Below are positions 7,494-23,505 of a DNA stretch of 23,505 bases, in pieces. Every line of letters begins with the position of its first letter. Within the stretch, counting starts at the first letter, position 1. Made by a program: the position numbers and the translations under genes. The notes under the pieces are model-generated. The model searched no databases. It was not told the origin of the DNA and saw nothing but the letters and a program-made list of their open reading frames with translations. The stretch comes from a virus: positions 1 to 23,505 of the IMG/VR virus record IMGVR_UViG_3300027734_000323; one strand, written 5' to 3'.

Positions 7494-8090
7494 ATGAAAT
7501 ATTTGAAAAGATTTTTAGAATCTAGATTTGAGTCAGAAGATGAACTATCTGATTATATTTTAGAATTGATTGATGAAAAATTCCTAACCTTTTTGAAGCT
7601 CGAACTCAAAAATAAATGGGATTCTTCAGGAAATGTTATTATTGGTTGTCATATATGGTATGCTTATTCAATATCAAAGGATTTTTATAGAATCGATAAT
7701 AGCCAAAAATTAGAAGATTTTATTAAAAAACTATCTATTTTATCAAAATCAATCAAAAGGTGGAATTTAGATTTTAGTATAATTAAAGATGAGTTAATAA
7801 TTATTGATGAGGCTCCAGAATATATTACAGAGTTCATGATAGACAATACACAGAAACACTTAATTTTTAGTTATGGTAGAAATACTACATACTCATCATT
7901 TAGAGATGATAAAGTTTCACTTGGGTGTTATTTTAACCAAGATTTAGAATTTTTTATTTCACTAAAAGGTGGTAATAAACAAGAAAGAGAAGATTACATA
8001 AGTAATACAATAAGAACTGGTCAAAAGTACAAATTTAAATTAATAAATAATTCAAGTGAAAAAACTGATTTTCAAATAATTCCTGTTTAA
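7494..8090 (+). CDS. Probable internal virion protein with capsid-targeting-like N-terminus, 198 aa
   Basis: The function of the body is unknown. The N-terminus, MKYLKRFLESRFESEDEL, is one of eight copies in the window of a motif resembling the T4 capsid-targeting sequence; F-L-E-S (residues 7-10) and F-E-S (12-14) would fit a gp21-like cleavage site. The remainder is alpha/beta with IIGCHIWYAYS, LSILSKSIKRWNLDFSIIKD and IFSYGRNTTYSSFRDD, and no obvious catalytic motif. It leads an operon: a TTAATATATA box sits 5 nt before the ATG, and the next gene, also with the targeting-like motif, starts 3 nt after the stop codon. Packaging into the capsid is inferred from the N-terminus only. Confidence 0.82.
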   Translation: MKYLKRFLESRFESEDELSDYILELIDEKFLTFLKLELKNKWDSSGNVIIGCHIWYAYSISKDFYRIDNSQKLEDFIKKLSILSKSIKRWNLDFSIIKDELIIIDEAPEYITEFMIDNTQKHLIFSYGRNTTYSSFRDDKVSLGCYFNQDLEFFISLKGGNKQEREDYISNTIRTGQKYKFKLINNSSEKTDFQIIPV

Positions 8091-8092
8091 TT

Positions 8093-8794
8093 ATGAAATA
8101 TCTTAAATATTTTAGGGAATCACAATCAGAGATAACACTAAAAGAAAAATTAGAGTCTATTGTGATGATGTATCAATATCTTTGGTCTAATCATATTGAT
8201 CCAGACTCACTTGGTAACTTTACTGGTAAATGCTCAGTATTATTTACTGGCTGTATGACTATTAATAGAGGATGGGACATTTCAAAGAAAGAAAGTCGAC
8301 CATATGAGTTTGATGTTGATTGTTTATTAAATAAACTAGAAACTGATTATAGAAAAGAAGAAAAACTTAAAAATATCGAAGAACTCTATAAGTCAAGTAT
8401 TATACCAAGATTTAAGCATACCAAAGAGGAAATTGAACAATTTTTATCACCAGTATTAAATTTAGAAGTAACTGGAGATAAAATTATAAAATCATATGAA
8501 ATAAATCCATATTTTAATGGTTGGAATAAAAAAGCATGCTTTAGCATAAAGTGTAAATTGAATGAGGAGTTTCTCACAATGGATGAGCAAGAAGTTGAAA
8601 CTAAAAAAGGCAATGGATATTTTGATAGAAAATATTTCAAAGAAATTGAAGATGAATTTTATTCTTGTAAAAGACTAATAAATTCAAAAATTGAAGAACT
8701 AGATTTACAAAAAGCTGGATTAGAATTTTCCATGGATGATAATACACACTTGGGTCTATACTTTAACTTCCACATTAGAATAGAGGAAATTTAA
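8093..8794 (+). CDS. Probable internal virion protein with capsid-targeting-like N-terminus, 233 aa
   Basis: This is the second gene of the operon starting at 7494, with 2 nt between stop and ATG. The N-terminus MKYLKYFRESQSEITL repeats the targeting-like motif (M-K-Y-L-K-x-F-x-E-S), with F-R-E-S as a candidate cleavage site. The rest is mainly helical, with long charged stretches (NKLETDYRKEEKLKNIEELY, and later DEFYSCKRLINSKIEELD). The interior includes GKCSVLFTGCMTINRGWD and YFNGWNKKACFSIKC. It has no recognised family. Beyond the N-terminus and a similar final beta-rich segment (LGLYFNFHIRIEEI here, LGCYFNQDLEFFISL in the neighbour), I see no clear similarity to the preceding protein. Distant duplication is possible but unproven. 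Confidence 0.82.
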   Translation: MKYLKYFRESQSEITLKEKLESIVMMYQYLWSNHIDPDSLGNFTGKCSVLFTGCMTINRGWDISKKESRPYEFDVDCLLNKLETDYRKEEKLKNIEELYKSSIIPRFKHTKEEIEQFLSPVLNLEVTGDKIIKSYEINPYFNGWNKKACFSIKCKLNEEFLTMDEQEVETKKGNGYFDRKYFKEIEDEFYSCKRLINSKIEELDLQKAGLEFSMDDNTHLGLYFNFHIRIEEI

Positions 8795-8810
8795 ACTTTC
8801 AGAGGTATTC

Positions 8811-8838
8811 AACTTATAATTTATCCGAATTATAAGTT
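8811..8838 (+). promoter_or_regulatory. Perfect 11-bp hairpin immediately before the clamp-loader start
   Basis: AACTTATAATT (8811-8821) and AATTATAAGTT (8828-8838) pair perfectly around a 6-nt TATCCG loop. The stem ends 2 nt before ATG 8841, and there is no T-run. In mRNA it would lie where a ribosome must bind; in DNA it is a dyad that a repressor could use. Confidence 0.6.
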
Positions 8839-8840
8839 AT

Positions 8841-9818
8841 ATGAAACAACTATTACTATCAGAGAAGTGGCGCCCTAAAACAATTGAGGACGTAATCCTT
8901 TTACCAAGAATCCGTAAAATATTTGAGAACGGTCTCAACCAAAATGTTATTTTATATGGTCATTTTGGAACCGGCAAAACTACTATTGCTCGCATACTAA
9001 TAGGTAAGTATCTCAAGAATACTCCACACATAGAATTAAACAGTTCATTCTATACATCTATTGATACGCTTAGAAGTAAGATTGATGACTTTTGTTCAAA
9101 GGTCTATATGGGATTTGATATGGATCAAGATATATCAAAAGATACAATTAAATATGTATTTTTAGATGAATTTGAAAGGACATCCATTCAATATCAAGAC
9201 GCCTTAAAAGCTTATATTGAAGAGTTCTCAAAGAAAAATGTTAGATTTATCCTAACAACAAACCACATCAACAAAGTTTCACCAGGAATTCGATCTAGAT
9301 TAATTGAAGTAAACTTTGATTGTCAATCACCAGAAGAAGAGAAATATCTTAAAACAGAAATCTATAAAAAGATTAATACTGTAATTGCTCCACAAGAAGA
9401 ATTTGAAATTCCAAAAGAAGAGTTGATTAAGATAATCAATAAAAAGTTTCCAGACTTTAGGTCAATAATGATTGATGTTGATAACTTCAAACAAACTGGA
9501 TCATCAAATGAATCTGGATCAACAATAAATATTAAATTAAGAAATGATTTATATGCAATTCTATTTGATAAAAGTAAGACATATGATGAGATATATCATT
9601 TTTTAATGAATAACTTTGGACCAGAAAAGATTGATGAAATGATTTCTCTTTTTGGTAGACCATTTATTGAATGGTCAATTAATGAAAAGAAATCTAATAT
9701 TGAAAAGTTATTTCAAGTAAACTATATTATCACCGAACACACAAAATTGTTAGAAACTAATACCGACCCGATTGTTTTGGGAATGACTGTTATTGGAAAG
9801 ATTCGCGATATTTTTTAA
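8841..9818 (+). CDS. DNA polymerase clamp-loader large subunit, T4 gp44-like AAA+ ATPase
   Basis: In T4, gp44 forms four subunits of the gp44/62 clamp loader that opens and loads the gp45 sliding clamp at primer ends. The 325-aa protein (T4 gp44 is 319) has the family signatures: SEKWRPKTIEDVIL (7-20), Walker A GHFGTGKTT (40-48), Walker B YVFLDEFE (105-112), sensor-1 LTTNHINK (138-145), and the arginine finger in the SRLIEVNF segment (152-159; SRC in most relatives). The C-terminal collar domain is helical. No small subunit (gp62) or clamp is adjacent, so the replication genes are dispersed. Expression may be controlled by the hairpin just before the start. It has no TTAATATATA box of its own, which would fit early or middle expression (inference). 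Confidence 0.93.
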   Translation: MKQLLLSEKWRPKTIEDVILLPRIRKIFENGLNQNVILYGHFGTGKTTIARILIGKYLKNTPHIELNSSFYTSIDTLRSKIDDFCSKVYMGFDMDQDISKDTIKYVFLDEFERTSIQYQDALKAYIEEFSKKNVRFILTTNHINKVSPGIRSRLIEVNFDCQSPEEEKYLKTEIYKKINTVIAPQEEFEIPKEELIKIINKKFPDFRSIMIDVDNFKQTGSSNESGSTINIKLRNDLYAILFDKSKTYDEIYHFLMNNFGPEKIDEMISLFGRPFIEWSINEKKSNIEKLFQVNYIITEHTKLLETNTDPIVLGMTVIGKIRDIF

Positions 9819-9855
9819 CAACTAGCTGAAGTGAATCAAATGTATATATTAGGAT

Positions 9856-9865
9856 TTAATATATA
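9856..9865 (+). promoter_or_regulatory. Late-type promoter box for the gp25-like gene
   Basis: TTAATATATA ends 5 nt before ATG 9871. GAAGTGAA lies about 22 nt upstream, a near match to the AAAGTGA element of the extended promoters. Confidence 0.6.
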
Positions 9866-9870
9866 AATTC

Positions 9871-10257
9871 ATGGCAGCAGTAGATTTTACCGATTTTTAC
9901 ATTTTATACAAAGACCACCCAAGATATGTTCCAAAAGAACTTATTGAAGATGAAGTTGTTAATGTTATTATACAGAAATATGAAATGATACTATTCACCA
10001 ATAAAGGTGAAGTATTGGGTGATCCAGAATTTGGCGCAAATCTATTAGAGTTATTGTATCAAACTAAAGTATCTGAGTCATATGTTGTTAGTACTATAGA
10101 TGAGCAAATTGCTATTTATATACCAGAATTAGCAAATACAAATTACACATTAAATGTTGTGTTTGTTCAAGATCCGGAGAATTACCAAGATATAATGTTT
10201 GTAAATCTTAAAATTGCTGACTACAGCATTTACGCACAAATAGGCAAGTTTAGCTAA
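9871..10257 (+). CDS. Baseplate wedge protein, T4 gp25-like (GPW/gp25 family)
   Basis: gp25 sits in the baseplate wedge around the central hub and nucleates sheath polymerisation; homologues occur in phage P2 (gpW) and type VI secretion (TssE). The 128-aa product matches T4 gp25 (132 aa). After a short N-terminal arm, VNVIIQKYEMILFTNKGEVLG leads to the diagnostic GDPEFGANLLELLY (50-63; T4 has FDPEFGCDLSDQLF). A helix (VSTIDEQIAIYIPEL) and the alternating strands TNYTLNVVFV and IMFVNLKIADYSI follow. The family's conserved E-F-G is intact. It is preceded by a clean late-type promoter box. Its 3' end overlaps the convergent hydrolase gene by 8 nt. It is the only wedge gene in the window. Confidence 0.87.
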   Translation: MAAVDFTDFYILYKDHPRYVPKELIEDEVVNVIIQKYEMILFTNKGEVLGDPEFGANLLELLYQTKVSESYVVSTIDEQIAIYIPELANTNYTLNVVFVQDPENYQDIMFVNLKIADYSIYAQIGKFS

Positions 10258-10864
10258 TAGAGCAATGATTGGCTGAGTAGATATATTTCCAATCTCTTTT
10301 AATATTAACACCTAAAGCTTCTGCTGTTGTAACAACATCTTCCAAACATTCCGAATCAGCACCACCAACAATAGTAACTTCTTTACCCTTTAACTTTTGA
10401 AATAAGTTATACAATTTAACAGGGCATTGAAACCACTGATGATTATTCCCAATAAATACTATAATAGTACCTTCTTCTGTTGGAAAATATTGACCTTTCT
10501 TTAGAGTCTTTTCTTGAGATTTAATCTGTTGATAAACTTCTTTACTTAGAATCTTTTTATAAAATTCAACATCAACATCATAATTATACCTCTTTTCGAT
10601 TAAATCAACTTGATTAGGAAATGTATATAAGTCTCCGTTTACTGGTATTTCAGGATTATCATCATACAAATAATCTTTATCTTGATTCTTACCATCAACA
10701 TGGTTATCAAATATTTGATAAACATTAGTAAAGTTATTACAATACTTTTTCAACTCATTCAAATACATTTCATTAAAGAACTTCTTAAATGACTTTTGAA
10801 CATCAACAACCAATAGAGTAGAGTTATTTTTTTCAAAATTTTCAAATAGTTTAAGATATTTCAT
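10250..10864 (-). CDS. Isochorismatase/nicotinamidase-fold cysteine hydrolase with capsid-targeting-like N-terminus
   Basis: The 204-aa product joins a targeting-like leader (MKYLKLFENFEKNN) to an isochorismatase-like hydrolase domain. The fold is indicated by STLLVVDVQKSF (15-26, candidate catalytic D21), a central EKRYN (candidate K91), and VTIVGGADSECLEDVVTTAE (163-182, candidate nucleophile C173, in the position of the family's G-x-x-T-x-x-C-V-x-x-T-A motif). A plausible Asp-Lys-Cys triad is therefore present. Family substrates include nicotinamide, isochorismate, N-carbamoyl compounds and ureidoacrylate; the substrate cannot be told from sequence. The leader suggests packaging and injection with the DNA, as for T4 Alt, but this is inference. 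A TTAATATATA box lies 4 nt before the ATG, pointing to late synthesis and fitting a virion protein. Confidence 0.78.
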   Translation of the reverse strand: MKYLKLFENFEKNNSTLLVVDVQKSFKKFFNEMYLNELKKYCNNFTNVYQIFDNHVDGKNQDKDYLYDDNPEIPVNGDLYTFPNQVDLIEKRYNYDVDVEFYKKILSKEVYQQIKSQEKTLKKGQYFPTEEGTIIVFIGNNHQWFQCPVKLYNLFQKLKGKEVTIVGGADSECLEDVVTTAEALGVNIKRDWKYIYSANHCSIS

Positions 10865-10868
10865 AGTG

Positions 10869-10878
10869 TATATATTAA
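10869..10878 (-). promoter_or_regulatory. Late-type promoter box for the isochorismatase-fold gene
   Basis: TTAATATATA ends 4 nt before the ATG at 10864, the shortest spacing of this class in the window. Confidence 0.6.
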
Positions 10879-10891
10879 AGTATGTGCATAA

Positions 10892-10919
10892 AAAAACACC
10901 GATTTACTCGGTGTTTTTT
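10892..10919 (-). terminator. Terminator after the Gln/Ala-rich protein gene
   Basis: ACACCGA (10896-10902) pairs with TCGGTGT (10908-10914), extended by flanking A and T runs. It lies about 20 nt past the stop codon of the minus-strand gene at 10937. Confidence 0.88.
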
Positions 10920-10936
10920 ATAAAATGTTTTATAAA

Positions 10937-11527
10937 TTAAGCTGGTAATTCTTCTTCACCAGTTTCTTCTTCCTCTTCTTGAGCTTGTCCTTGAGCCTCA
11001 GGTTGTGCTTGTGGCTGAGCTTGAACTGGTTGAGCTTCTCCTTGTGGAGCTACTTCCTCAAAACCTTCTCCACCAGTTTGAGCTTGTGCTTGTGGTTGAG
11101 CTTCAGTTTGAACTTGAACCTGTGGTTGAACTTGAACCTGTGGTTGAGCTTGTGCTTGTGGCTGAGCTTCAGGTTGTGCTTGTGGTTCAGTTTGAGCTTG
11201 TGGTTGAGCTTGTCCTTGAACAGGAGCTTGAGATTGACCTTGAACACCACCAACTAAAGCAGTTGCTGGAATTTTATCAGCATCAATACCTGCTTGAGCA
11301 ACGTGTTTTACAATTTCTTCAGCAATATCCATATCACCAAAGAACTGACGTAAGTTCTTACCAGTATTATCTTTTACTTTCTTAACATAAGCATTAATTA
11401 ATGACTGAGGAATATCAATCATACTTTTTACTTTGTAAATATCGTTTACTTGAAAAACAGATTCTTTAATAATCTCTTCTCTTTTTCTTTCAACTCTATA
11501 AGATTCAAATTTTTTGATGTGTTTCAT
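10937..11527 (-). CDS. Gln/Ala/Pro-rich repeat protein with capsid-targeting-like N-terminus, 196 aa
   Basis: Three parts are visible. The leader MKHIKKFESYRVERK matches the targeting-like motif, and IIKES (19-23) fits a gp21-type cut site. Residues about 24-95 form a folded-looking helical domain (VNDIYKVKSMIDIPQSLINA, then RQFFGDMDIAEEIVKHVAQ). Residues about 96-182 are a low-complexity QAQPQ/QVQPQ repeat, followed by an acidic tail (EEEEETGEEELPA). T4 also makes small acidic or low-complexity prohead core proteins, so a core, scaffold or internal protein is plausible. An extended promoter and a strong terminator bracket the gene, suggesting high late expression. Long antisense frames here are by-products of the repeat. 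Confidence 0.85.
   Translation of the reverse strand: MKHIKKFESYRVERKREEIIKESVFQVNDIYKVKSMIDIPQSLINAYVKKVKDNTGKNLRQFFGDMDIAEEIVKHVAQAGIDADKIPATALVGGVQGQSQAPVQGQAQPQAQTEPQAQPEAQPQAQAQPQVQVQPQVQVQTEAQPQAQAQTGGEGFEEVAPQGEAQPVQAQPQAQPEAQGQAQEEEEETGEEELPA
10982..11242 (-). repeat. Degenerate tandem repeat encoding a Gln-Ala/Gln-Pro tract
   Basis: In-frame repeats of CAA-GCT/CCA/GTT codons (seen on the plus strand as variations of GCTTGTGGTTGA) encode about 87 residues. Units vary between QAQPQ, QVQVQ and QPEAQ. Length variation by slippage is expected. Confidence 0.85.
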
Positions 11528-11559
11528 CTTAAATCATTAATTTTTTAATTTCTTATTAG

Positions 11560-11595
11560 TATATATTATATCTAAAAAATCATTTTTTTCACTTT
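11560..11595 (-). promoter_or_regulatory. Extended late-type promoter of the Gln/Ala-rich gene
   Basis: AAAGTGAAAAAAATGA (complement of 11580-11595) precedes ATAATATATA (11560-11569), with 20 nt between AAAGTG and the AT box. Both elements, the spacing and the leader AAGAAATTAAAAAAT match the promoter at 6493-6528. Confidence 0.62.
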
Positions 11596-12641: not shown

Positions 12642-13148
12642 ATGTATAAAAGACTAGTTTGCTTTGACTTTGATGGCACCTTAATTCATACACCTACTCC
12701 TGAGGCTGGTAAACCAGAATGGGAAAAACAAACCGGCCTTTCCTGGCAAGGTAGAGGATGGTGGGGTAATCCAGAATCACTTAATTTAAATGTATTCCAA
12801 CCACCTGTAAATCAATGGGTATATAATCACTACCTAAAAGAAACATCTGATCCAGATGCTTATGTCTTTTTAGCAACTGGTCGTTTATCTAAACTTGAAA
12901 AACAAGTGCTGGATGTATTGAAACTACATGATATTAAATTTGATGATGTTTTTTGCAACACCGGTGGTGAGACATTTAAATTCAAGTGTTGGTTATTTGA
13001 AAGAATAATCAAACAAAATCCACACGCTACTGAATTCACAATGTATGATGATCGTCACGAGCATTTGAAAGAATTTATACATTGGGCTAAACAACAACCT
13101 ATCAAAGTAAATATTATTGATGTTGTAAACAAAAAGCAAATTTTTTAA
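12642..13148 (+). CDS. HAD-superfamily phosphatase, Swiss-Army-Knife RNA-repair-like type
   Basis: The 168-aa product carries the complete HAD catalytic set: motif I CFDFDGTL (D9 nucleophile, D11 acid/base), motif II FLATGR (T79), a basic FKFKCW segment (111-117) in the place of motif III, and motif IV MYDDRHEHL (D136/D137). The inserts GRGWWGNPESL (38-47) and FDDVFCNTGG (100-109) are features that I associate with the HAD domain of Swiss-Army-Knife RNA-repair-like proteins. Family members are predicted to remove phosphates from nucleic-acid ends, so repair of damaged RNA or tRNA is a reasonable but untested role. The ClpS gene follows 12 nt after its stop codon, with its own promoter box overlapping that stop. 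Confidence 0.87.
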   Translation: MYKRLVCFDFDGTLIHTPTPEAGKPEWEKQTGLSWQGRGWWGNPESLNLNVFQPPVNQWVYNHYLKETSDPDAYVFLATGRLSKLEKQVLDVLKLHDIKFDDVFCNTGGETFKFKCWLFERIIKQNPHATEFTMYDDRHEHLKEFIHWAKQQPIKVNIIDVVNKKQIF

Positions 13149-13160: not shown

Positions 13161-13442
13161 ATGGCAACAATTACAAAAGAACAAGTAAGTGTACAAATAG
13201 AAGATATATTAGGACAACCTTATATACTAATGTTACACAATGATGATCACAACACATTTGATTGGGTAATCGAATGTCTTATAAAAGTCTGTAAACATGA
13301 CTTTGAACAGGCCTCACAATGTGCCCACTTGGTACATTTCACCGGTAAATGTGATGTTAAAAGAGGAGACCAAGAAACTATACAGAAAATGTATAATAAA
13401 CTTAAATCAGCCGGTCTTTCAGCAACTATTGAAGAAGCATAA
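13161..13442 (+). CDS. clpS: ClpS-like N-degron adaptor for the Clp protease
   Basis: ClpS binds substrates carrying destabilising N-terminal residues and passes them to ClpA/ClpC-ClpP. The 93-aa product covers the whole ClpS core: YILMLHNDDHNTFDWVIECL (21-40), QASQCAHLVHFTGKCDVK (50-67) and a closing AGLSATIEEA. The residues that contact the N-degron amine in E. coli ClpS are kept (N27, D28, D29 and H59 correspond to N34, D35, D36, H66). The gatekeeper position (Met40 in E. coli) is Phe33, and Thr38 becomes Asn31. The NDD-x-NTFD variant is what I know from Bacteroidota ClpS, which suggests acquisition from the host. It could redirect host proteolysis or shield phage proteins. Which Clp partner it uses is unknown. 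Confidence 0.92.
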   Translation: MATITKEQVSVQIEDILGQPYILMLHNDDHNTFDWVIECLIKVCKHDFEQASQCAHLVHFTGKCDVKRGDQETIQKMYNKLKSAGLSATIEEA

Positions 13443-14029: not shown

Positions 14030-14401
14030 TTATCCTAATGGATTAGCAGTTCTGTGAGATGCCCCACTAGCCAACGCTTGGAAACCAGTAACACCTGTTT
14101 TGTAAATTACATAAACACCACCACTTCTACTAGATTGTACTCTTAATCCACCGTTGAAGTTATCTTCTTCAGCTTGTTTGATTAAACTTTGTTTAGTTTT
14201 TTCCCAATTTTCAGCTTGTGGATAATCATCTGGGTTAGCCATTAATTCTTTTTCAGCTTCTTCTAAAGCAGCCATAAATTTATTTTTTGCTTCGCCTTTT
14301 GCAGCACTAGATTCATGTCCAGTGAAGAACTTCTTAACACCACCTAAGATTTCTTCTTCTTCATTGATTGAGAAGCTTTCAAATGTTTTTAAATGTTTCA
14401 T
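14030..14401 (-). CDS. Small probable internal virion protein with capsid-targeting-like N-terminus, 123 aa
   Basis: The leader MKHLKTFESFSINEEEEIL shows the targeting-like motif, followed by I-N-E-E (12-15), a near match to a prohead protease site. The remainder is a small domain: basic helices (GGVKKFFTGHESSAAKGEAK), an Asp-Tyr-Pro stretch, then GGLRVQSSRSGGVYVIYKTG and a Gly/Ala-rich C-terminus (GFQALASGASHR). I know no family for it. A short basic protein rich in Lys and Ala after an acidic leader fits a DNA-associated internal head protein like T4 IPI-III. One of the extended promoters lies upstream, suggesting abundant late synthesis. Confidence 0.82.
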   Translation of the reverse strand: MKHLKTFESFSINEEEEILGGVKKFFTGHESSAAKGEAKNKFMAALEEAEKELMANPDDYPQAENWEKTKQSLIKQAEEDNFNGGLRVQSSRSGGVYVIYKTGVTGFQALASGASHRTANPLG

Positions 14402-14429: not shown

Positions 14430-14466
14430 TATATATTAAATAAAAAAACTACTTTTTTCTCACTTT
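14430..14466 (-). promoter_or_regulatory. Extended late-type promoter of the 123-aa gene
   Basis: AAAGTGAGAAAAAAG, lying inside the 3' end of the 148-aa gene, precedes TTAATATATA (14430-14439). The spacing between AAAGTG and the AT box is 21 nt, against 20 nt in the other copies. Confidence 0.58.
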
Positions 14467-14895
14467 ATATTCTGGATTATTAGCAATTCCAGATTTAGTC
14501 TTACTACCCCACCATCTACAGAAATATCTAATAGCAATATCAACGCCATTAAACTTCATTTGACCAGTAGCATATGGTTGTTCTTCTTGTCCTTCTATCT
14601 TTTCAGGTTGTTTATACTTATTTTGGTCTTTAGACACCTCACTATCATAATAGTAAAAAGTTAAAATCCATTTGAATTTTTCTTCCTCTGGATTTAACTT
14701 AATTTTACCAACTAACTTTTTATGTTCATCAAGAATATCAATTTCTTGTTCAGAGTCATACATCTTAGTAGATAATTTGTAAATATTTAAATACTTTTGA
14801 TAGATAGTACTAAATTTTTTAGTAGGAGTAAAAGCTTTCTTTATCTTAGAAAAGAATCCCTCATTAAATTGCTCAAAGTTTTTAATATTTTTCAT
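14449..14895 (-). CDS. Probable internal virion protein with capsid-targeting-like N-terminus, 148 aa
   Basis: I place the start at the internal ATG 14895, giving MKNIKNFEQFNEGFFSKIKK, not at the frame's first ATG (14922). The shorter form begins with the targeting-like motif and lies 5 nt after a TTAATATATA box; the longer form would run through that box and overlap the terminase gene. F-N-E-G (10-13) fits a gp21-like cleavage site. The body is basic (KAFTPTKKFSTIYQKYLNIY) and contains GVDIAIRYFCRWWGSKTKSG near the C-terminus. The N-terminal segment NEGFFSKIKKAF resembles sequences after targeting motifs in other phage proteins, but no known function follows. It lies between the large terminase and the 123-aa gene on the same strand. 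Confidence 0.85.
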   Translation of the reverse strand: MKNIKNFEQFNEGFFSKIKKAFTPTKKFSTIYQKYLNIYKLSTKMYDSEQEIDILDEHKKLVGKIKLNPEEEKFKWILTFYYYDSEVSKDQNKYKQPEKIEGQEEQPYATGQMKFNGVDIAIRYFCRWWGSKTKSGIANNPEYKVRKK

Positions 14896-14900: not shown

Positions 14901-14910
14901 TATATATTAA
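14901..14910 (-). promoter_or_regulatory. Late-type promoter box for the 148-aa gene
   Basis: TTAATATATA overlaps the terminase stop codon and is followed by CTATT and ATG. The same arrangement, including the spacer, occurs at 18797-18806. Confidence 0.62.
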
Positions 14911-17054
14911 ATTCCAAACCAATTTTTACCACCACCATTCTGATTTTTATATTGACTCATAAACTTTCTCTGCCTATTGACATTTATAATAGAAGAATAA
15001 TCAATACCATCTTTGTGATCACCTCTTTTAAGTATTTCTTTCCAAGAATTTAATGTACCAGAATCAACAATTTTTGATGCACAATCTTCTATCATTTCTC
15101 TAAAATCATATTTAGAAAAAACACTAGCAGCGTTAACCAAAGTCATCACCGTATCATCATGCCCAATATCAGCAGCATATCTAATATTACCAGATGATGT
15201 TATGTGTTTAACAAATGTTGTTATCTCTCTAATATTATTTTCATTTGTTATGATGAAATTCTTTTTATCCATTGCATCTTGATAATCTTTTACCAACATA
15301 TTCTTATTTTCACCAACCTTTAATCCAACTCTTTCTTCTGTAGAATCAGCTCTATGTTTATATCTAAAGAAAACACTAGATCCATAATTATTATTTCCAT
15401 CAAATACATAAGGTAAGTGAGCCAAGAATTCATTACCATAGTTATTTAACTCTAAAACAACCTTAAAGTTCTCATAGTTAAAGTACTCAAATAATAATGT
15501 GTAGAATAGTTCAGCTAATTGCTTAACTGAAACAAAATTAGACCTGTAAATAGCAATTTGCTCTAAACAAAAGAAATCAGATAGTTGTGTATAATTACCT
15601 TGTTGTAGTTCAACAGTTTCTTGTGATTTTGGTGATATTTTAAATATATTAATAATTGAATAGTCTTGACCTAATCCTTCCGATATATCCACAGATATAA
15701 CACCTTTAGTTGAGTTTCTCATAATTGGACTAAAAACATCATCATCATCAACCCAGTGTAAGTCATCATAAGAAAATTTAAGACGTTTTGTTAATTCTGG
15801 TATTTCCTCATATACATAGTTCTTTTTATTATTAAGTAATTGTTCAATTAAATTCTCACTAAGTAAAGATCTGGTAGCGTTAACAAATCTCAATCCATAC
15901 TCTTGATTGAATGCGTCTTCACCACCAATATCTTTGATAGCTTCTTCTTTCCAAGTTGTTACTTCTGACACCGCGTAAATTGGAAGTTCCATATCATCTT
16001 CTTTAACTATTTGAAACTCTTTAACTATTTTATCAGTACAAGCATCATTATTGTAGATATAAATAACATCTTTAATTAAATCTGGTATGAACTTCATCTC
16101 AACCTTAGTGTGTTCACCAAATTGTCTCTGAACCTGTTCAAAAATATATTCTTTTGTCAACCCATGTTCATACATTTTATGGTTATTTAATCTAAAGAAT
16201 GTAACAAAACGACCAGGAACCTGATGCCAATAAACTCTCATTGGCTTATAGTTATTCTTCAATGGATCTCCATCCGGTCTTTCAGCATCACTTAGTAACC
16301 TATAAAATAGATTCATACCATTTGGGGTTGAAGTAATTACAATCTTAGAGTTCTCAATCGCAGAAACAGTTGGAAAGGCAGCAGTATAGTAAGGTTCGAT
16401 GATATTACTCGGAATATGAGCAAACTCATCAAGATATAAGAAGTCAATAGTAAAACCAATCGCAGGAGTCTTACTTCGAGCTGATGATTTAATTCTACAA
16501 CCATTATCAAAAATCATTGATTGTTGGTTTAGATTCTTAATACCAGCCTTTAGAAAGAAAGGTAATTGTGCATATATGTTTCTTATCTTATCAATAATCT
16601 CAATTGTAGTACCTCTAATATTAGCAACAATCATAATATTCTTATCATTATTAAATGTAATGAAGTGTAACATTGTGATAGCAGCATTGATAGTTTTACC
16701 AATCTGACGAGATCCACATAATATTGAAAATCTATTTTTAGTGTATAGGTCTAAAATATCCCTCTGATAATCTCTTAATTTGATATTCTGAACAGAACCA
16801 TCTTCTGTTTTAATTCTACAGTATTTTTCGGCAAAGTATTGAATATCTAATTTACACTTGATGTACTCTTGGATTTCATCCTCGGTCATCATAAATGTTA
16901 TACCAGCTCTTCGGTAACCAATTTCATTCTTAAACCAAGGATTCTGAAAACGCTTTACAACAACACCATCATTGATTTTCTCAGTTATATCATCAACTAG
17001 TTTACTAGTAAAAACAAATTTCTTTTCCTCGGTTGGTTTTTTAGCAACTGCCAT
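14907..17054 (-). CDS. Terminase large subunit, T4 gp17-like (packaging ATPase and nuclease)
   Basis: The motor that cuts concatemeric DNA and pumps it through the portal. The 715-aa product (T4 gp17 is 610) has an N-terminal ATPase domain with an adenine-binding LRDYQRDIL (93-101), Walker A SRQIGKT (115-121), Walker B FLYLDEFAHI (205-214, D209/E210) and coupling motif ITSTPNG (240-246). A C-terminal RNase H-fold nuclease has acidic residues in VISVDISEG (D456), VVLELNNYG (E535) and GHDDTVMTL (D633/D634). All parts seem intact, so it should be active. Extra length lies mainly in the N-terminal 60 residues and near 345-430. The adjacent plus-strand gene, facing away, is the probable small subunit, and the two share a 47-bp promoter region. 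Confidence 0.96.
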   Translation of the reverse strand: MAVAKKPTEEKKFVFTSKLVDDITEKINDGVVVKRFQNPWFKNEIGYRRAGITFMMTEDEIQEYIKCKLDIQYFAEKYCRIKTEDGSVQNIKLRDYQRDILDLYTKNRFSILCGSRQIGKTINAAITMLHFITFNNDKNIMIVANIRGTTIEIIDKIRNIYAQLPFFLKAGIKNLNQQSMIFDNGCRIKSSARSKTPAIGFTIDFLYLDEFAHIPSNIIEPYYTAAFPTVSAIENSKIVITSTPNGMNLFYRLLSDAERPDGDPLKNNYKPMRVYWHQVPGRFVTFFRLNNHKMYEHGLTKEYIFEQVQRQFGEHTKVEMKFIPDLIKDVIYIYNNDACTDKIVKEFQIVKEDDMELPIYAVSEVTTWKEEAIKDIGGEDAFNQEYGLRFVNATRSLLSENLIEQLLNNKKNYVYEEIPELTKRLKFSYDDLHWVDDDDVFSPIMRNSTKGVISVDISEGLGQDYSIINIFKISPKSQETVELQQGNYTQLSDFFCLEQIAIYRSNFVSVKQLAELFYTLLFEYFNYENFKVVLELNNYGNEFLAHLPYVFDGNNNYGSSVFFRYKHRADSTEERVGLKVGENKNMLVKDYQDAMDKKNFIITNENNIREITTFVKHITSSGNIRYAADIGHDDTVMTLVNAASVFSKYDFREMIEDCASKIVDSGTLNSWKEILKRGDHKDGIDYSSIINVNRQRKFMSQYKNQNGGGKNWFGI

Positions 17055-18841: not shown

Positions 18842-19294
18842 TTATTTTATATATCCTTGACTTAGCGCAAATTCATATAGAACTGGTAAGTTTAGATACC
18901 TCATAAATCCATTTTTAATATCCTCTAATGTTTTTGATTTTTTTAATATAGACATAATCATGAAACCAAATTCCTCTTGGAATTGCAAGTCACATTCTGA
19001 CCAAGGTCTATTATAGTTTTGCAACGTCACCCATTCATTATCACCACCGGTTAACCAATATAAAGCTCTTCTAGGTTCTACTGTAGAAAAATCAAGTGGT
19101 AATTCTTTTTTCCAGATGGATCCATCCAAATTTGGATTTCTCATCATGATAGAAACAGCTTCTGCAATATCGGTGGTAATTTCATTACCAACCTCAAAAA
19201 ACAATTCGCCGTTTACTTCTTTGCTGATTCTCACAAAGTTAGATTCTGTTAGTATTCTAACATTGTTATTTTTTGTGAAACGTTTTTTTCTCAT
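18842..19294 (-). CDS. Hypothetical protein, 150 aa
   Basis: I do not recognise this protein. It starts with a basic stretch (MRKKRFTKNNNVRIL), followed by a beta-rich region ending FFEVGNEITTDIAEAV, a mixed middle with RRALYWLTGGDNEWVTLQNY, and a helical C-terminus (EEFGFMIMSILKKSKTLEDI). No membrane segment or catalytic signature is visible. It is the second gene of a minus-strand pair with the MORN-like repeat gene upstream (17-nt gap) and is followed by a strong terminator. No promoter box lies directly before its start, so it probably depends on the upstream gene's promoter. Confidence 0.75.
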   Translation of the reverse strand: MRKKRFTKNNNVRILTESNFVRISKEVNGELFFEVGNEITTDIAEAVSIMMRNPNLDGSIWKKELPLDFSTVEPRRALYWLTGGDNEWVTLQNYNRPWSECDLQFQEEFGFMIMSILKKSKTLEDIKNGFMRYLNLPVLYEFALSQGYIK

Positions 19295-19311
19295 AAAAGA
19301 AAAATGATTTT

Positions 19312-19605
19312 TTATATCTCAATCAAATTTATTCCACTGACAAACTTTCCTTTGAATGTTCCTCCTTCAAAGATTCCATTCTGAAAAGTTCCGTAGAACT
19401 CACCACTTTTAAAAATACCATAGTGCCAGTTACCAGAGTAGTAACTACCACCATACCAAATTAAAGTGTTGTTTTTGATTTCGATTTGTGCATCCTCTAC
19501 TTCCGAATCAATTAACCAATGAAAGTTTTCTTTCTCAAGGATGTTTAAGATTTTATTTTGATTTACTATCTTATTTTCATTATAAATCAGCTCATTAAAA
19601 CGCAT
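19312..19605 (-). CDS. Small protein with MORN-like beta-strand repeats, 97 aa
   Basis: After a helical N-terminal half (MRFNELIYNENKIVNQNKIL), residues about 48-91 consist of short repeats with regular aromatic and Gly positions: WYGGSYYSGNW, HYGIFKSGEF, YGTFQNGIF, EGGTFKGKF. Such W/F-x-G-G-x-F/W-x-x-G repeats form a beta-helix or MORN-like sheet, and phages often carry them in short accessory proteins whose function is unknown. The ATG lies about 30 nt after an exact TATAAATA box on the minus strand (19636-19643). It begins a two-gene unit with the 150-aa gene. Membrane, lipid or glycan contact is a generic possibility for such repeats; nothing here decides it. Confidence 0.8.
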   Translation of the reverse strand: MRFNELIYNENKIVNQNKILNILEKENFHWLIDSEVEDAQIEIKNNTLIWYGGSYYSGNWHYGIFKSGEFYGTFQNGIFEGGTFKGKFVSGINLIEI

Positions 19606-19635
19606 ATTCTCTTATTAATTTAAATCATTATTACT

Positions 19636-19643
19636 TATTTATA
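19636..19643 (-). promoter_or_regulatory. TATAAATA box upstream of the MORN-like gene
   Basis: An exact match to the T4 late consensus, 30 nt before the ATG. The nearby inverted repeat AAATCTCAA/TTGAGATTT (19654-19694, 23-nt loop) has no clear role. Confidence 0.4.
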
Positions 19644-19713
19644 TATTTGATTGAAATCTCAACAAAACATCTATATCTAGAAATTTTGAGATTTTTTATG
19701 ATTTAGCATAAAA

Positions 19714-19739
19714 AAACCCACCAAGTTATTGGTGGGTTT
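19714..19739 (-). terminator. Terminator after the 131-aa protein gene
   Basis: AAACCCACCAA and TTGGTGGGTTT pair perfectly across a GTTA loop, followed by a T-run on the minus strand. It lies 16 nt past the stop codon of the gene at 19756. Confidence 0.9.
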
Positions 19740-19755
19740 GATAAGTAATTTTTTA

Positions 19756-20148
19756 TTAACTATTAGACTGACTTTTTAAGAAAGCTTTTTCTTTTCTTGT
19801 AAGAGATTCCATACCAGAAGTACTGATTTTCTCAAGAACAGTATCTACATCCATATCAGAAAAGTCATAAAATTTAGTAAATGTGATTGGCTTCATTGAA
19901 GCAAAGTATTCAGCAAGTTCATCAACATAAATAACTTCTGTTGTTCCTTTGTTAATATAGGCAATTATGTTGAATCTTGTAGAGTCACAGAAAAGAAAAT
20001 CGGCTGTCTTTTTCATTTCCATAAGTTTTTTACCAGAAAACTTACTAACAGGAATACCATTATCATCACGAAGTCTTTCAAAATCAACAACAGAATTACA
20101 CATTCTCAAGTCAATTTTGATGTATTTGTTATCGAAGTATTTAGACAT
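19756..20148 (-). CDS. Unknown protein with Bacteroidota-type C-terminal helical motif, 131 aa
   Basis: I choose the ATG at 20148 (MSKYFDNKYIKIDLRMCNSV). The frame opens earlier at 20208, but that 20-residue extension is low-complexity and would read through the repeats upstream. The middle contains FSGKKLMEMKKTADFLFCDS and IIAYINKGTTEVIYVDELAE, suggesting a small alpha/beta domain. The C-terminus MDVDTVLEKISTSGMESLTR and onward (KEKAFLKSQS) is the two-helix motif that I know from the ends of many Bacteroidota proteins; the 142-aa protein at 13550 carries a related version. No function is known. It is divergent from the 986-aa gene across a repeat-bearing intergenic region. Confidence 0.8.
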   Translation of the reverse strand: MSKYFDNKYIKIDLRMCNSVVDFERLRDDNGIPVSKFSGKKLMEMKKTADFLFCDSTRFNIIAYINKGTTEVIYVDELAEYFASMKPITFTKFYDFSDMDVDTVLEKISTSGMESLTRKEKAFLKSQSNS

Positions 20149-20170
20149 TTTATTAAATATTAGATTGTGA

Positions 20171-20270
20171 TTGTTTATCAAAGATATGGAATAATTATTG
20201 AAATACAAAATTATTTTTACTATTTATTACTATTCTATCAATTGATAAACAAATATACGGAATAATTATT
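20171..20270. repeat. Direct and inverted repeats in the divergent intergenic region
   Basis: GGAATAATTATT occurs at 20188-20199 and 20259-20270. TTGTTTATCAA (20171-20181) is an exact inverted copy of TTGATAAACAA (20242-20252), and the 12-bp palindrome TATCAATTGATA (20236-20247) overlaps the latter. Arranged between two divergent genes, these look like operator sites; an origin-type element is less likely. Confidence 0.5.
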
Positions 20271-20318
20271 AGATTATCAAACTTTATCAGTATTTAAGAT
20301 TTTTCCGGTGATATAAAA

Positions 20319-20328
20319 TTAATATATA
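20319..20328 (+). promoter_or_regulatory. Late-type promoter box for the 986-aa gene
   Basis: TTAATATATA ends 22 nt before ATG 20351, leaving a short leader without a Shine-Dalgarno sequence. Confidence 0.55.
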
Positions 20329-20350
20329 AGTAAAATTTTAGGCTTAAATT

Positions 20351-23311
20351 ATGAAATATTTAAAATATAGAGAAGATTTTCTACATAGAGAGATTAAACT
20401 TGATGAATCAAAAATTCAAGAACAAATTAAAAGTTCTGAAATGATTTCAGAAGCTTTTGAGAATGATATCACTTGGGGTGGATCTTTAATTGGAAGACTA
20501 TTTAACTCTATATTAAGAAAAGGTAAAGTAATGATACAAACTGCTAGGATTGGATCATTAGTTAAATCTCTTAAAGATGAACTAGATTCTTTATCTGGAG
20601 AAGTACAGATCGCATCCGATGAGAAAATAAAAAATAAAGTTTACTTACTTTCTATTAGATTTTTAGTAACTGAGATATATAATATTGTTGTTAGTAATAA
20701 AACTGTTGCCGAAAAGAAAGGAGAATTAGTAGGAGATGGATCTGAGGATGCTGGTCTTATACAAACAACTATTAAACAGGTTGAGGCTATACCAGATGAG
20801 TCACTCCCAAATAAAAAAGAACTTATTGAAAAGCTTAAAAGATTTAGAGAAGCATTACTTAAATTAGAAGTAAAAGCCGAACCATCAAAAGATGAAGAGG
20901 AAGATGATAATAGTGAAACAAACTTCTATAATCAAACACTCAATCTATTGAAATCAATTGTAGCATTAAATGATGTTATTCTTAATAAAAAGATTAAGAA
21001 TGCAGAAACAAAGTTAGAGGTTGGCAAAGAATATATTAACCAAAATGGCAAGGTTTGCATGATTGTTAGTTTAGATTATATGATTGACAGACCAAGTATA
21101 AAATTAGGTGGAGATGGTATGTTTTTTACAAATGATGATAAAAAAAGTCAAAAAATAGAAAGTGATGAAGTTTTTGTTGAGTATCGTGATGAGAAAACAA
21201 AACAATATACCGGCAATTCTCCTGTACAAGTAGTTAAAAGAAACCAATTAAAGCCATATACTAAAAATGATACCATAAAAGATCAACAAGGTAAACCTTC
21301 ACAAGTAAAACCAAAATCAATAGACAACAAGGGAACTAAAATTGGAACTGGATCTGGACAAGGTCAAAAAGAAGGAGAAAAGATAGAGAAATCAAATGAC
21401 TCATATTATTATGAGAATGAATCACTTCCTATTTTTGAAGACACAGACCTTGAAAATAATGAAACACATGCTAAAGCTGCTTGGAATAAAGTATTAAACA
21501 CATGGAATAAAACTGGAATTTCAAAAATGGTTCCAAGAATACAAGAACTATTGAAAAAATCTGAGTCTGGAAGTAAATTAGAGAAAGGATGGATAATGGA
21601 CTTAGGTAAGCAAATTATGTTAAATAAATCAACAGTAGGTGCAAATCCTATGAAATTTGATGATTTAATTAAAGAAGCAGAAGCTATTCCTACATCATAT
21701 AATGATATACCTAAAGCAATATCTTTAGTTAGTAGAGTTATACTTTCATTTAAGGAAGATATGGGATTATTAGGAGCATTAGGTGATGCTAACCCACATA
21801 TTAAATTATTTGTCAACTCATTTGATGAGATGAGTAAGATATATCCTAATCTAAAAGCAAAGAAAAAAGAAGAACCTAAGAAAGAAGAGGAAAAGACACC
21901 AGAAGCACAAAATGCTTCACGTCTATTTAACTACTCTAAATTCTTATCAATAAATGAAGCAGATGATGTTGTACCTGAATTAGACTCTGAAACAGAAAAG
22001 TCCGAAAATGATGAGGTTAAAACTGCCTGGTCTAATGAGTTCAAAGAAGGTGAGGAGAAAGAGTGGAAAATAGAAGAGAAAGAAGCCAAAGAACTACAAA
22101 AAGAAACAGATGAGTTAGAGAATAAAGAAACTACATTTAAGGGTGATGACTATTATGATCACATCATAGCAATTATTGAAATTTTCGGCAAGGCTTACAA
22201 TCTATATGCAACTACTGTTATTCCATCTGGTAGACCAAATGGTAGAATTTCTCAAAAAACATTTAGAGAATATGAATTTATTGGAGATGGTAAGAATCCG
22301 GGATGGAAAGAAGGAGAAGGACCAGAAGCTGGTCCATGGGCAGCAAAGCAAACATATCAAAAGTGGCAAGATGGTGTTATGGGCATTCTTAAAGATCCTA
22401 AATATAGAAAAATATTAGCAAATGTTAAATTTGTATCAGAGGCCGAAAGTTCAACAGGAACACCATCCAAAGAAGGTTCAGGAAGATCTTTATTTACCTT
22501 CATCAATGACCTAACAACCGGAAATGGTGAATTTAGTAAGATTAAAAGAGAAATGATGAATAAGTATTTCACAACAAAAGAAATGAAAACAAAGGGAGAC
22601 AAGGAAACTCCAGGATTTGGGGGTAACCCAAGTCCTACTATTTCTGGAGATGATAAAGGTGAGACAAATAAATATTATTTAACACTTGGTAAAGAGATTA
22701 GTGGTATATATGTATCACCAAGAATGTCTGATTATAAAAAATCAGATAAAGAAAATAGCTCATTTTTGAATAATTTTACACTAGCTAAGTATAAAACAGA
22801 TGATGCAAAAGAAGGAACTATTTTAGTTTATGTTAATAATTATTTTACAGTTGATGATAGTCCACACATTTTAGTAAAGTTTCAATTTATCAAGGAAGGA
22901 AGACAATCATTAATAAGTTCTTATTTAAAAAATAGTATTACAAATGACAAAATGGAATTACCCGAAGATATAAGAGAAGATTTAACAAAATCTATTTATG
23001 TAGGTGTTATCAAATTATCAGATGGTCATTTACTAACAGGAAGTACTCCAAATATAACATATATAGACGCAGTAGAACTAAACTCACCAACGGAACAAGG
23101 ATTTAAAGAACTAAATATTAAATTGACACAGATTAAATATCTAACAAAACTTGTAGATACAAAAGATGGAAATCAAAAAAGAATAGTAGTTAAGCCAAAA
23201 GACAATAAACCGGACGAGTTTACAAATAAAGATGTTAAAGACACACTTGGTAAAATTAAAAATAGTGACTCTTTGAAAAAGGGCCTTAAAATAGAAGGAA
23301 AAATAAAATGA
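20351..23311 (+). CDS. Large probable internal virion protein with capsid-targeting-like leader and candidate cleavage sites, 986 aa
   Basis: The largest gene in the window; no known family. The leader MKYLKYREDFLHREIKL is a variant of the targeting-like motif. Sites fitting or nearly fitting T4 gp21 cleavage ([LI]-x-E then A) occur at I32-S-E-A, I440-K-E-A, I534-N-E-A and, as a variant, V695-S-E-A. An internal copy of the leader pattern, RLFNYSKFLSINEA (524-537), follows a Lys/Glu-rich linker, as if two targeting-bearing proteins had fused. Acidic or Lys/Glu-rich low-complexity linkers lie at about 178-190, 300-350 and 503-520. The C-terminal third contains KYYLTLGKEISGIYVSP and GTILVYVNNYFTVDDS, and appears folded and beta-rich. 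The stop overlaps the next start as ATGA. The 3' gene also has a targeting-like leader, so this is an operon of probable internal proteins. Confidence 0.87.
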   Translation: MKYLKYREDFLHREIKLDESKIQEQIKSSEMISEAFENDITWGGSLIGRLFNSILRKGKVMIQTARIGSLVKSLKDELDSLSGEVQIASDEKIKNKVYLLSIRFLVTEIYNIVVSNKTVAEKKGELVGDGSEDAGLIQTTIKQVEAIPDESLPNKKELIEKLKRFREALLKLEVKAEPSKDEEEDDNSETNFYNQTLNLLKSIVALNDVILNKKIKNAETKLEVGKEYINQNGKVCMIVSLDYMIDRPSIKLGGDGMFFTNDDKKSQKIESDEVFVEYRDEKTKQYTGNSPVQVVKRNQLKPYTKNDTIKDQQGKPSQVKPKSIDNKGTKIGTGSGQGQKEGEKIEKSNDSYYYENESLPIFEDTDLENNETHAKAAWNKVLNTWNKTGISKMVPRIQELLKKSESGSKLEKGWIMDLGKQIMLNKSTVGANPMKFDDLIKEAEAIPTSYNDIPKAISLVSRVILSFKEDMGLLGALGDANPHIKLFVNSFDEMSKIYPNLKAKKKEEPKKEEEKTPEAQNASRLFNYSKFLSINEADDVVPELDSETEKSENDEVKTAWSNEFKEGEEKEWKIEEKEAKELQKETDELENKETTFKGDDYYDHIIAIIEIFGKAYNLYATTVIPSGRPNGRISQKTFREYEFIGDGKNPGWKEGEGPEAGPWAAKQTYQKWQDGVMGILKDPKYRKILANVKFVSEAESSTGTPSKEGSGRSLFTFINDLTTGNGEFSKIKREMMNKYFTTKEMKTKGDKETPGFGGNPSPTISGDDKGETNKYYLTLGKEISGIYVSPRMSDYKKSDKENSSFLNNFTLAKYKTDDAKEGTILVYVNNYFTVDDSPHILVKFQFIKEGRQSLISSYLKNSITNDKMELPEDIREDLTKSIYVGVIKLSDGHLLTGSTPNITYIDAVELNSPTEQGFKELNIKLTQIKYLTKLVDTKDGNQKRIVVKPKDNKPDEFTNKDVKDTLGKIKNSDSLKKGLKIEGKIK

Positions 23312-23505
23312 TTAAAAAATACTCAGAATTTATTTTAGAAACTTATTTTCCTGAACAAACAGATTCTCCGGAGATATCTTCGGATATGAATAGATTCAAT
23401 GATATTGAAAATAACATTAAGGACTTTGATAAGTATAAAGTTACTATTAGTAATATTTATATGACTTATACCGATGAGAAGGATTTAATTAATAAATTAT
23501 CTGCT
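23308..23505 (+). CDS. Start of a gene with capsid-targeting-like leader (cut by window edge)
   Basis: The ATG overlaps the stop of the 986-aa gene (ATGA), implying coupled translation. The visible 66 residues begin MIKKYSEFILETYFPEQ. This is the closest match in the window to the T4 capsid-targeting sequence MKTYQEFIAEA: K-x-Y-x-E-F-I-x-E is shared position by position, and I-L-E-T lies where T4 is cut. The following DSPEISSDMNRFNDIENNIK is acidic and helical. No function can be assigned from this fragment. Confidence 0.75.
   Translation, partial: MIKKYSEFILETYFPEQTDSPEISSDMNRFNDIENNIKDFDKYKVTISNIYMTYTDEKDLINKLSA

Follow-up and report, generated by a model that had tools for sequence, protein, structure and literature searches.

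A short leader shared by unrelated megaphage proteins as a candidate T4-type capsid-targeting propeptide

Why do eight proteins with unrelated bodies, encoded within 23.5 kb of viral DNA, begin with variants of one short peptide? The question is raised by the virus record IMGVR_UViG_3300027734_000323, all 23,505 nucleotides of which were analysed and are referred to here as the window. The sequence-only reading of this DNA had proposed that the peptide is a removable, capsid-targeting leader, and support for this comes from recurrence of the leader, conservation at the peptide level, the register of its Glu residues, a shared type of cut site, a gp21-like protease and a separate dialect in phage PAU. 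Tag, site, register and shared site type, taken together, suggest that the leader is a T4-type capsid-targeting propeptide, which would tag cargo for the head and be cut there, the proteins being delivered with the DNA. We put the probability of this reading at about 0.78.

The sequences themselves show a portable tag, a site at restricted spacing, a protease, and a type of site common to the capsid protein and a scaffold-like open reading frame (ORF). Scaffold binding, cutting, virion presence and injection we infer from T4. Residues 1-7 of the tag would bind the scaffold core of the growing prohead and carry the attached protein inside. A gp21-like protease would then cut after Glu in a Phi-x-E setting (Phi, hydrophobic; Y-N-E↓S, I-F-E↓S, I-N-E↓E, the arrow marking the cut), in the same maturation wave as the trimming of the major capsid protein and the breakdown of the scaffold. 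Once freed, the proteins would remain with the packaged DNA and accompany it into the host.

Leader proteins of the window

By its large terminase the window is part of a megaphage genome; the enzyme is 66% identical to that of LR756502 (642 kb) and 64% identical to that of LR745206 (635 kb). Identity is 41% to the terminase of LR756504 (636 kb) and 41% over 75% of its length to that of LR756501 (735 kb). These genomes are labelled W01 (LR756502), W02 (LR745206), W03 (LR756504) and W04 (LR756501). According to the available sections of the source (Nature 2020, PMC7162821), complete phage genomes of 634, 636, 642 and 735 kb are known, the largest are placed in the Mahaphage clade, and Bacteroidetes hosts are predicted for genomes above 634 kb. 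All eight N-termini were found in the window as follows.

7494..8090, plus strand: starts MKYLKRFLES; candidate cut F-L-E↓S; body without significant family match
8093..8794, plus strand: starts MKYLKYFRES; candidate cut F-R-E↓S; body without significant family match
10250..10864, minus strand: starts MKYLKLFENF; candidate cut L-F-E↓N
10937..11527, minus strand: starts MKHIKKFESY; candidate cut I-K-E↓S; Q/P/E-rich tail
14030..14401, minus strand: starts MKHLKTFESFSINEE; candidate cut I-N-E↓E
14449..14895, minus strand: starts MKNIKNFEQFNEG; candidate cut F-N-E↓G; ATG at 14895, the listed ORF beginning further up at TTG
20351..23311, plus strand: 986 amino acids, starts MKYLKYREDF; no Pfam match
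23308..23505, plus strand: start of a protein, MIKKYSEFILE↓T; 66 codons, then the window end

The candidate cut-site strings picked out earlier (FLES, FNEG, IKES and ISEA) are all present in these proteins. The I-K-E↓S of the protein at 10937..11527 corresponds to IIRES and IIKES in two relatives, and the LR745206 relative of 14030..14401 (44% identity) starts MKYLKTFENYSPINEEEE. At six loci related to 20351-23311 the tag-like start is kept with linkers of different length; relatives also keep the stretch NDI-WG-SL-GRL, which begins directly after I-S-E-A. The protein cut off at the window end is related to the product of the corresponding LR756502 gene (32% identity over 63 residues, E 1e-9), which starts MKYLKGYSSFNED; the LR745206 gene in this position starts MKYLKKYKIFLEA. 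The window leader, MIKKYSEFILE, had been said to align with the T4 tag residue by residue. It does match MKTYQEFIAE, but one residue has to be skipped, and the wording was slightly too strong.

The claim that the bodies are unrelated was borne out. No two of seven window bodies clustered together (three were singletons and four clustered with other phages), the truncated eighth body being excluded from the clustering. Searches of the window leader proteins against PHROGs and Pfam gave nothing significant. The body encoded at 10250-10864 is modelled with a nicotinamidase/isochorismatase-like fold (best Z 9.3). The 50 entries at the top of its structure matches (Z 8.0-9.3, 123-146 residues) belong, judged by their titles, to the isochorismatase-like superfamily. 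Foldseek alone gave no match to this model at E below 0.001, and sequence searches gave no isochorismatase-like match. Residues D21, K91 and C173 are invariant in 13 sequences and may correspond to the Asp-Lys-Cys catalytic triad of isochorismatase-like hydrolases. Leader residues 1-12 have a predicted local distance difference test score (pLDDT) under 50, the tag being modelled as disordered. Among 21 IMG/VR orthologues of this protein, the usual tag is present in 6 and variant starts in 15 (MVCIKKFEKF, MIKTFEKF and MRIVKTFDKY among them), and one orthologue has a longer linker.

Genome-wide recurrence and the candidate cut site

Genes were called by a simple longest-ORF rule (W01 970, W02 940, W03 926, W04 1018, T4 259, PAU 291, PTm1 305, MA9V-2 263, window 32). 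A ten-residue leader profile with a score cut-off of 8 was trained on one genome and applied to another, with internal methionines as control. The profile trained on W02 matched 142/970 gene starts of W01 against 3/3065 internal methionines, and that trained on W01 matched 116/940 starts of W02 against 2/2868. The leader can thus be used to search whole genomes, as had been proposed, about 11-15% of genes in these two being tagged. The combined W01 and W02 profile found 7 of the 32 window genes (internal 0/123), missing MIKKYSEFILE, together with 49/926 starts in W03 (internal 0/2483) and, in the differing dialect of W04, 11/1018 (internal 1/3611).

A blind search was also carried out for a shared N-terminus anchored at the start codon, the log-likelihood gain being compared with that of three column shuffles. 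The gain was 1170 against 492-495 in W01, 851 against 365-371 in W02, 434 against 279-304 in W03, 382 against 334-344 in W04 and 295 against 208-222 in PAU. MA9V-2 (206 against 191-201) and PTm1 (149 against 143-154) were at or near noise, as was T4 (146 against 134-150), sets of about four being invisible to the method. Lak-A2 gave a mixed group (234 against 202-214). The core pattern of residues 1-7 is present at 130/970 starts in W01, 100/940 in W02 and 51/926 in W03, compared with 3/3065, 4/2868 and 4/2483 internal methionines. Dialect patterns of residues 1-8, drawn after the blind search, match 51/1018 starts in W04 (internal 3/3611) and 20/291 in PAU (internal 0/1179).

The typical tag is M-K-[HY]-[LI]-K-x-[FY], with variants such as MKHLKxYNES, MKHLKxYKIFES, MKYLKxFESF and MKHLKRFNEEL. 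After Met, the strong profile columns are 2 (K), 3 (H/Y), 4 (L/I), 5 (K), 7 (Y/F) and 10 (F); positions 4 (L, I) and 7 (Y, F) thus carry hydrophobic or aromatic residues, as in a tag of the T4 type. Orthologues counted as untagged often carry a variant, as does W02 MIIKKYIKFINEEFDH beside its W01 orthologue MKYLRTYEGFDH, and the counts therefore miss true members; they also include a few false hits. Two further features were noted behind the leader. Many W04 tagged proteins have a second short motif, DPYGEExW, soon after it (those at 5130, 132880, 176207, 297634 and 475399, for example), and W03 tagged proteins may have a strongly acidic stretch such as SEDWDDEE directly after it (47163, 62693, 312206, 614951).

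The conserved entity appears to be the peptide, since synonymous codons vary and no upstream motif was seen. MKYLKKY occurs five times in W02 as five DNAs, and MKHLKKY five times in W01 as four. The 30 bases upstream are A-rich in leader genes and other genes alike, with no specific motif, and a shared promoter or DNA element before the leader was rejected on this ground. A translation-start effect, by which A-rich codons after ATG would favour Lys-rich starts, has in its favour that the genomes are AT-rich and that AAA is preferred at codon 2 in W01 (80% vs 61%; in W02, 75% vs 74%). It fails to account for the specific H/Y, L/I and F/Y positions with their varied synonymous codons, or for a Glu register that is absent from 818 (W01) and 817 (W02) other genes. 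For the pattern as a whole this explanation is refuted, its probability being negligible; chance and translation-start effects alike were rejected by the internal-methionine controls and codon usage. An origin from host genes was rejected as well, because MK[HY]LKx[FY]NES is present in 98 IMG/VR stretches and gave a single match in a collection of 84,980 bacterial and archaeal species (one genome each). That match lies on JAGXNQ010000134, a 7.5-kb contig binned as Lokiarchaeota, and may be phage contamination.

The candidate site was tested as [FILVYM]xE[SNAG] in residues 5-28, leaders being defined by residues 1-7 (1-8 in W04 and PAU). It was found in 76/130 leaders of W01, 62/100 of W02, 24/51 of W03, 28/51 of W04 and 18/20 of PAU, against 120/803, 123/806, 119/836, 153/921 and 40/267 other proteins, respectively (Fisher p between 8e-8 and 1e-24). 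Further along these leaders, in residues 29-52, the counts are 4/130, 11/100, 1/51, 9/51 and 1/20. Because the tag pattern itself fixes an aromatic residue able to act as P3, the test was repeated with aromatic-matched controls. These have the site in 9/109, 20/118, 19/101, 30/116 and 1/22 (W01 to W04 and PAU), and the contrast remains (p 4e-17, 6e-12, 5e-4, 4e-4 and 1e-8). Sites whose P3 lies wholly beyond the fixed aromatic were seen in 46/130 leaders vs 8/109 controls in W01, 34/100 vs 12/118 in W02, 19/51 vs 16/101 in W03 and 8/20 vs 1/22 in PAU.

The leader site is usually Phi-x-E↓S, and its spacing is restricted. Beyond residue 7, the first Glu is residue 8, 9 or 11 in 110/130 leaders of W01 against 135/818 other proteins, and in 88/100 of W02 against 176/817. 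No leader of W01 or W02 has it at 10, compared with 52/818 and 53/817 others. The internal proteins of T4 have propeptides of 10-19 residues in which residues 4 and 7 serve targeting and residues 8 and 10 govern processing; Asp at position 10 blocks processing and leaves targeting unaffected (PMC9026906 section 10).

Protease, capsid protein and tagged bodies

The prohead protease gene, which lies outside the window itself, was located in the related genomes and compared with gp21 as had been suggested; it is gp21-like, with conserved His and Ser. PF03420 matches all 8 phage records examined, 4 of them above its cut-off. The His and Ser motifs (T4 85/140, W01 72/127) are 55 residues apart in T4, W01 to W04 and PAU and 54 apart in PTm1; in MA9V-2 the His motif was not found by the pattern used. 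In each of W01 to W04 the protease is fused, within a single ORF, with a scaffold-like array built of YSEYIAENLDKNI units. The ORF at LR756502 225272-227371 holds roughly a dozen such units, and W02, W03 and W04 are alike. Of 12 large IMG/VR contigs selected among the leader matches, 9 carry a protease of the W01 type, and the other three are records of 263-348 kb that may be incomplete. A 107-kb IMG/VR contig that is 99% and 93% identical to the window over the two tagged genes compared carries both the protease and the capsid gene, with the capsid site SINE↓N.

Proteins of at least 150 amino acids were ranked by density of Phi-x-E[SNAG]. The protease-array ORF ranks 1/482 in W01, 1/458 in W02, 1/396 in W03 and 2/512 in W04. 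The protease ORF ranks 2/165 in PAU (where the array is absent), 1/154 in PTm1 and 11/143 in MA9V-2; with the narrower Phi-N-E it ranks 1/154 and 3/143 in the last two. In the alignment of capsid proteins one Glu column is shared: QINE↓N (W01), SINE↓N (W02), QIHE↓N (W03), QMNE↓N (W04), IINE↓S (PTm1) and ALME↓N (PAU), FLNE↓S of MA9V-2 lying a few columns off. Thus the leader's type of site is also found at the end of the predicted capsid-protein propeptide and in the scaffold-like ORF, as in a T4-type system. This bears on the possibility that the tag addresses proteins elsewhere, to an infection vesicle, a phage nucleus or a membrane, with the Glu site as part of the signal. Some large phages do compartmentalise infection (PMC13282480, in the part available), no search for a nucleus-shell gene having been made here. 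Since the site type is that of the same phages' capsid protein and scaffold-like ORF, and the T4 tag, for which residues 4 and 7 are needed, is an established head-targeting signal (PMC9026906 section 10), such another address has a very low probability.

The portability of the leader, claimed from the window alone, holds across genomes: when 414 bodies taken from seven sources were compared with phmmer at E 1e-3, 294 clusters resulted, of which the largest has 48 members and the next 19. The 20 PAU bodies form 20 clusters, and 76 of the 152 tagged bodies of W01 and 76 of the 123 of W02 have no relative among the other tagged bodies. Profile search with the 48-member family, named DDGF after its DILxELxDDGF motif, found tags on 55/58 members in W01 and 33/38 in W02; its model (mean pLDDT 78.8) matched no PDB fold at E below 0.001.

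It is conceivable that the shared N-terminus reflects common descent, either in a family that multiplied and diverged or in early genes with a common start region, and has nothing to do with packaging. The two large families would suit this explanation, as would phage PA5oct, in which short genes, many of them near the genome ends, share an N-terminus unlinked to virion detection and 21 sampled bodies of these MDxILxLQ-like genes form 16 clusters. The PA5oct family is a caution that a common N-terminus on diverged bodies is not in itself proof of packaging. Common descent is nevertheless disfavoured, and quite improbable, in view of the number of clusters, the recognisable unrelated domains, the varying linkers between leader and body, and the confinement of the Glu register and cut-site enrichment to the leader (neither was looked for in the PA5oct family).

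Pfam searches were run on 136/152 tagged proteins of W01 and 115/123 of W02, proteins under 75 amino acids, those crossing stretch ends and three long doubtful ones being excluded. At E 0.01, 25 families were matched in W01 and 22 in W02. T4-type RNA ligase, SET, NUDIX and M15 peptidase were each assigned to single tagged proteins. Lysozyme (4e-23), a cyclase domain (2e-19), GNAT (9e-8) and HNH (4e-8) were matched within the tagged sets as a whole. Replication-type matches were weak (Toprim_2 6e-4, HHH_RecD2 2e-3, Viral_helicase1 3e-3). In comparison, 86 of the 818 untagged W01 proteins (the longest, at most 1200 amino acids, without stretch-end crossers) matched 83 families at 1e-6, with ribonucleotide reductase, DNA polymerase B, topoisomerase, tRNA synthetases, Hsp70 and portal among the 25 matches listed. 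The sequence-only reading had held that a leader equally frequent on non-virion enzymes would speak against capsid targeting. Enzymes do carry the leader, but no strong replication or virion-structure family was found among the tagged proteins scanned. A DNA methyltransferase was rejected as cargo, as LR745206 464007 (D12 methyltransferase match) is a false start (offset 28); LR756502 162642 (offset 34) is likewise doubtful as a tagged protein. Both were kept in the clustering sets of 123 and 152, and the latter was omitted from the Pfam scan. A tagged IMG/VR protein (stretch L304, 3491-4240, plus strand) has a body that by eye resembles a protein kinase.

A different possibility is that the tag targets the scaffold core and is cut there, the bodies being proteins of head assembly or of the core, which work within the prohead or exit from it, without delivery to the host. 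In PAU, 12/20 tagged genes lie in the 100-120 kb stretch with the protease and capsid genes, and the window, LR756502 and LR745206 all have a tagged protein of 794-986 amino acids conserved close to the terminase. RNA ligase, SET, NUDIX, M15 peptidase and nicotinamidase-like bodies, on the other hand, better suit host takeover, and the half or more of W01 and W02 bodies without a tagged relative are as expected of fast-changing anti-host cargo. A role confined to head assembly is therefore considered unlikely. The head genes of the window itself are without the leader:

1..1335, minus strand: 5' part of the portal gene (Portal_T4 1e-47)
2130..2639, plus strand: head-closure protein family, in the neighbourhood
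14907..17054, minus strand: large terminase (gp17-like)

The portal gene is T4-like and runs off the left window edge; its LR756502 relative directly precedes the protease and capsid genes. Amid the head genes lies a glutamine synthetase gene (3343-4494, plus strand; Gln-synt_C 5e-18), and similar-looking genes lie between the same neighbours in W01 (218053) and W02 (189663). Two untagged genes of the plus strand were also noted, one at 12642-13148 for HAD_SAK_1, an RNA-repair type HAD (2e-11), and one at 13161-13442 for a ClpS adaptor of the host Clp protease (PF02617, 1.8e-16).

Weight of the evidence and known systems

In T4 the known tag, MKT[YF]xEF, matches four ORFs (ipI, ipII, ipIII and gp61.1), which serves as a check of method and not as independent evidence. 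Hypothetical gp61.1 (NC_000866 18966-19130, minus strand) starts MKTFKEFIKED, close to the internal-protein tag. A pattern made from MA9V-2 starts such as MKNFFQFINES matches 5/263 genes, four with [IV]NE. In Lak-A2 (MK250019) five starts like MNKNIKKLLESLFDD were found by eye at 105455, 113970, 480809, 493587 and 494720 (internal 0/2505); they may represent a Lak dialect, and the Lak-A2 capsid protein has KLNE↓D. PA5oct has a related protease (37% identity), and its record (MK797984) carries per-gene notes from electrospray tandem mass spectrometry; 88 of the 92 noted genes copied matched gene calls, one noted gene being omitted. A dialect picked after viewing the detected list is present in 7/88 detected and 3/308 undetected genes, which is weak and serves as a lead only. 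At the PA5oct genome ends (408-2696, 280681-286146) short genes with MDxILxLQ-like starts often have an internal HLQ motif. For MIJ3, closely related to PA5oct, the available text reports four virion proteins by mass spectrometry, and the words 'mass spectrometry' are absent from the MA9V-1 and MA9V-2 papers.

Several results weigh against a capsid-targeting propeptide. A set of 100-150 packaged species would far exceed the few of T4. In W01, 54/130 leaders have no strict site and 16/130 no Phi-x-E at all by residue 24, and in W04 sites with P3 wholly beyond the fixed aromatic are only slightly enriched (16/51 vs 26/116). The narrower Phi-N-E ranks the protease-array ORF 29/482 (W01), 20/458 (W02), 29/396 (W03) and 19/512 (W04), and the PAU protease ORF 12/165. 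T4 gp23 is gapped in the capsid alignment, so that Phi-x-E is not placed exactly on the T4 cut, a point that slightly lowered our confidence. Among the tagged W01 proteins is one with a match to the membrane family PQ-loop. In PAU the one protein named 'internal capsid protein' in the stretch of its record covered, gp70, starts MKWTTLSMSD and does not belong to the 20 tagged ones. The protease is present in PTm1 and Lak-A2, and the leader is found in 0/305 and 1/603 of their genes; the leader is therefore a lineage trait rather than an obligatory partner of the protease. In PA5oct a pattern fixed beforehand was found in 5/88 detected and 9/308 undetected genes (p 0.21), and the blind search found a different N-terminus on short genes (6/88 vs 45/327). 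No virion proteomics of leader-bearing phages was found in the literature.

With these points weighed, the best reading of the sequences is a T4-type capsid-targeting system that appears expanded by more than one order of magnitude, in lineage dialects, to some 11-15% of genes in two genomes. The 152 tagged proteins of W01 comprise 28,420 residues, about 3.1 MDa at one copy each. Because the T4 head holds about 1000 internal protein molecules (PMC3012670, available part), several copies of each in a 640-kb capsid are plausible. A wider proposal, which we somewhat favour, is that the largest known phages have a genome-wide address-label system, covering 130-150 genes in LR756502, 100-120 in LR745206 and about fifty each in LR756504 and LR756501. 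Tagged proteins would be packed, freed by the prohead protease and injected as a takeover and anti-defence proteome of RNA-repair, nucleotide- or NAD-related and protein-modifying enzymes, and the lineage dialects of the tag would have co-evolved with protease and scaffold. If so, the tag would read out the injected proteome straight from sequence, and a sizeable share of unannotated megaphage genes would be cargo delivered as infection begins, a stage at which anti-defence functions are expected. Candidate injected effectors in uncultured phages of the group could then be listed, and their mature N-termini predicted, by a simple rule on sequence, and tags with cut sites would offer a means of bringing proteins of choice into capsids of very large size.

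Searches of the open-licence PubMed Central literature, including the available parts of PMC7824862, PMC7162821 and PMC13282480, turned up no account of megaphages with a tag set of this kind, which falls short of proving novelty. In phiKZ, 201phi2-1 and SPN3US, as described in the sections available (PMC9026906, PMC10052503), many head proteins are similarly cut after Glu by gp21-related proteases and some cleaved proteins are ejected with the DNA. The differences are that SPN3US propeptides are mostly long (111-254 residues, with two of 20 and 24), that the phiKZ motif is S/A-x-E, and that a short tag common to dozens of bodies is not described in those sections. Sphingomonas phage PAU shares a T4-type terminase, protease and capsid protein and has its own dialect, MKTL[TS][QK]LYE[AS], on 20/291 genes, 18/20 with a cut site; it differs in that dialect and in having far fewer tagged genes. 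The likeness to T4, with its capsid-targeting sequence on ipI, ipII, ipIII and Alt and its gp21, lies in a short N-terminal tag on unrelated bodies with key positions 4 and 7, and in a Phi-x-E site cut by an S77 protease (a cut that is predicted here) which also serves capsid and core proteins. The internal proteins of T-even phages are themselves a diverse defence set joined by the tag alone (PMC3012670, available part). Compared with T4, about 100-150 genes are tagged here instead of a handful, the tag is typically M-K-[HY]-[LI]-K-x-[FY] with a predicted cut mostly after residue 8, 9 or 11, and the protease and the repeat scaffold-like part (YSEYIAENLDKNI) are joined in one ORF.

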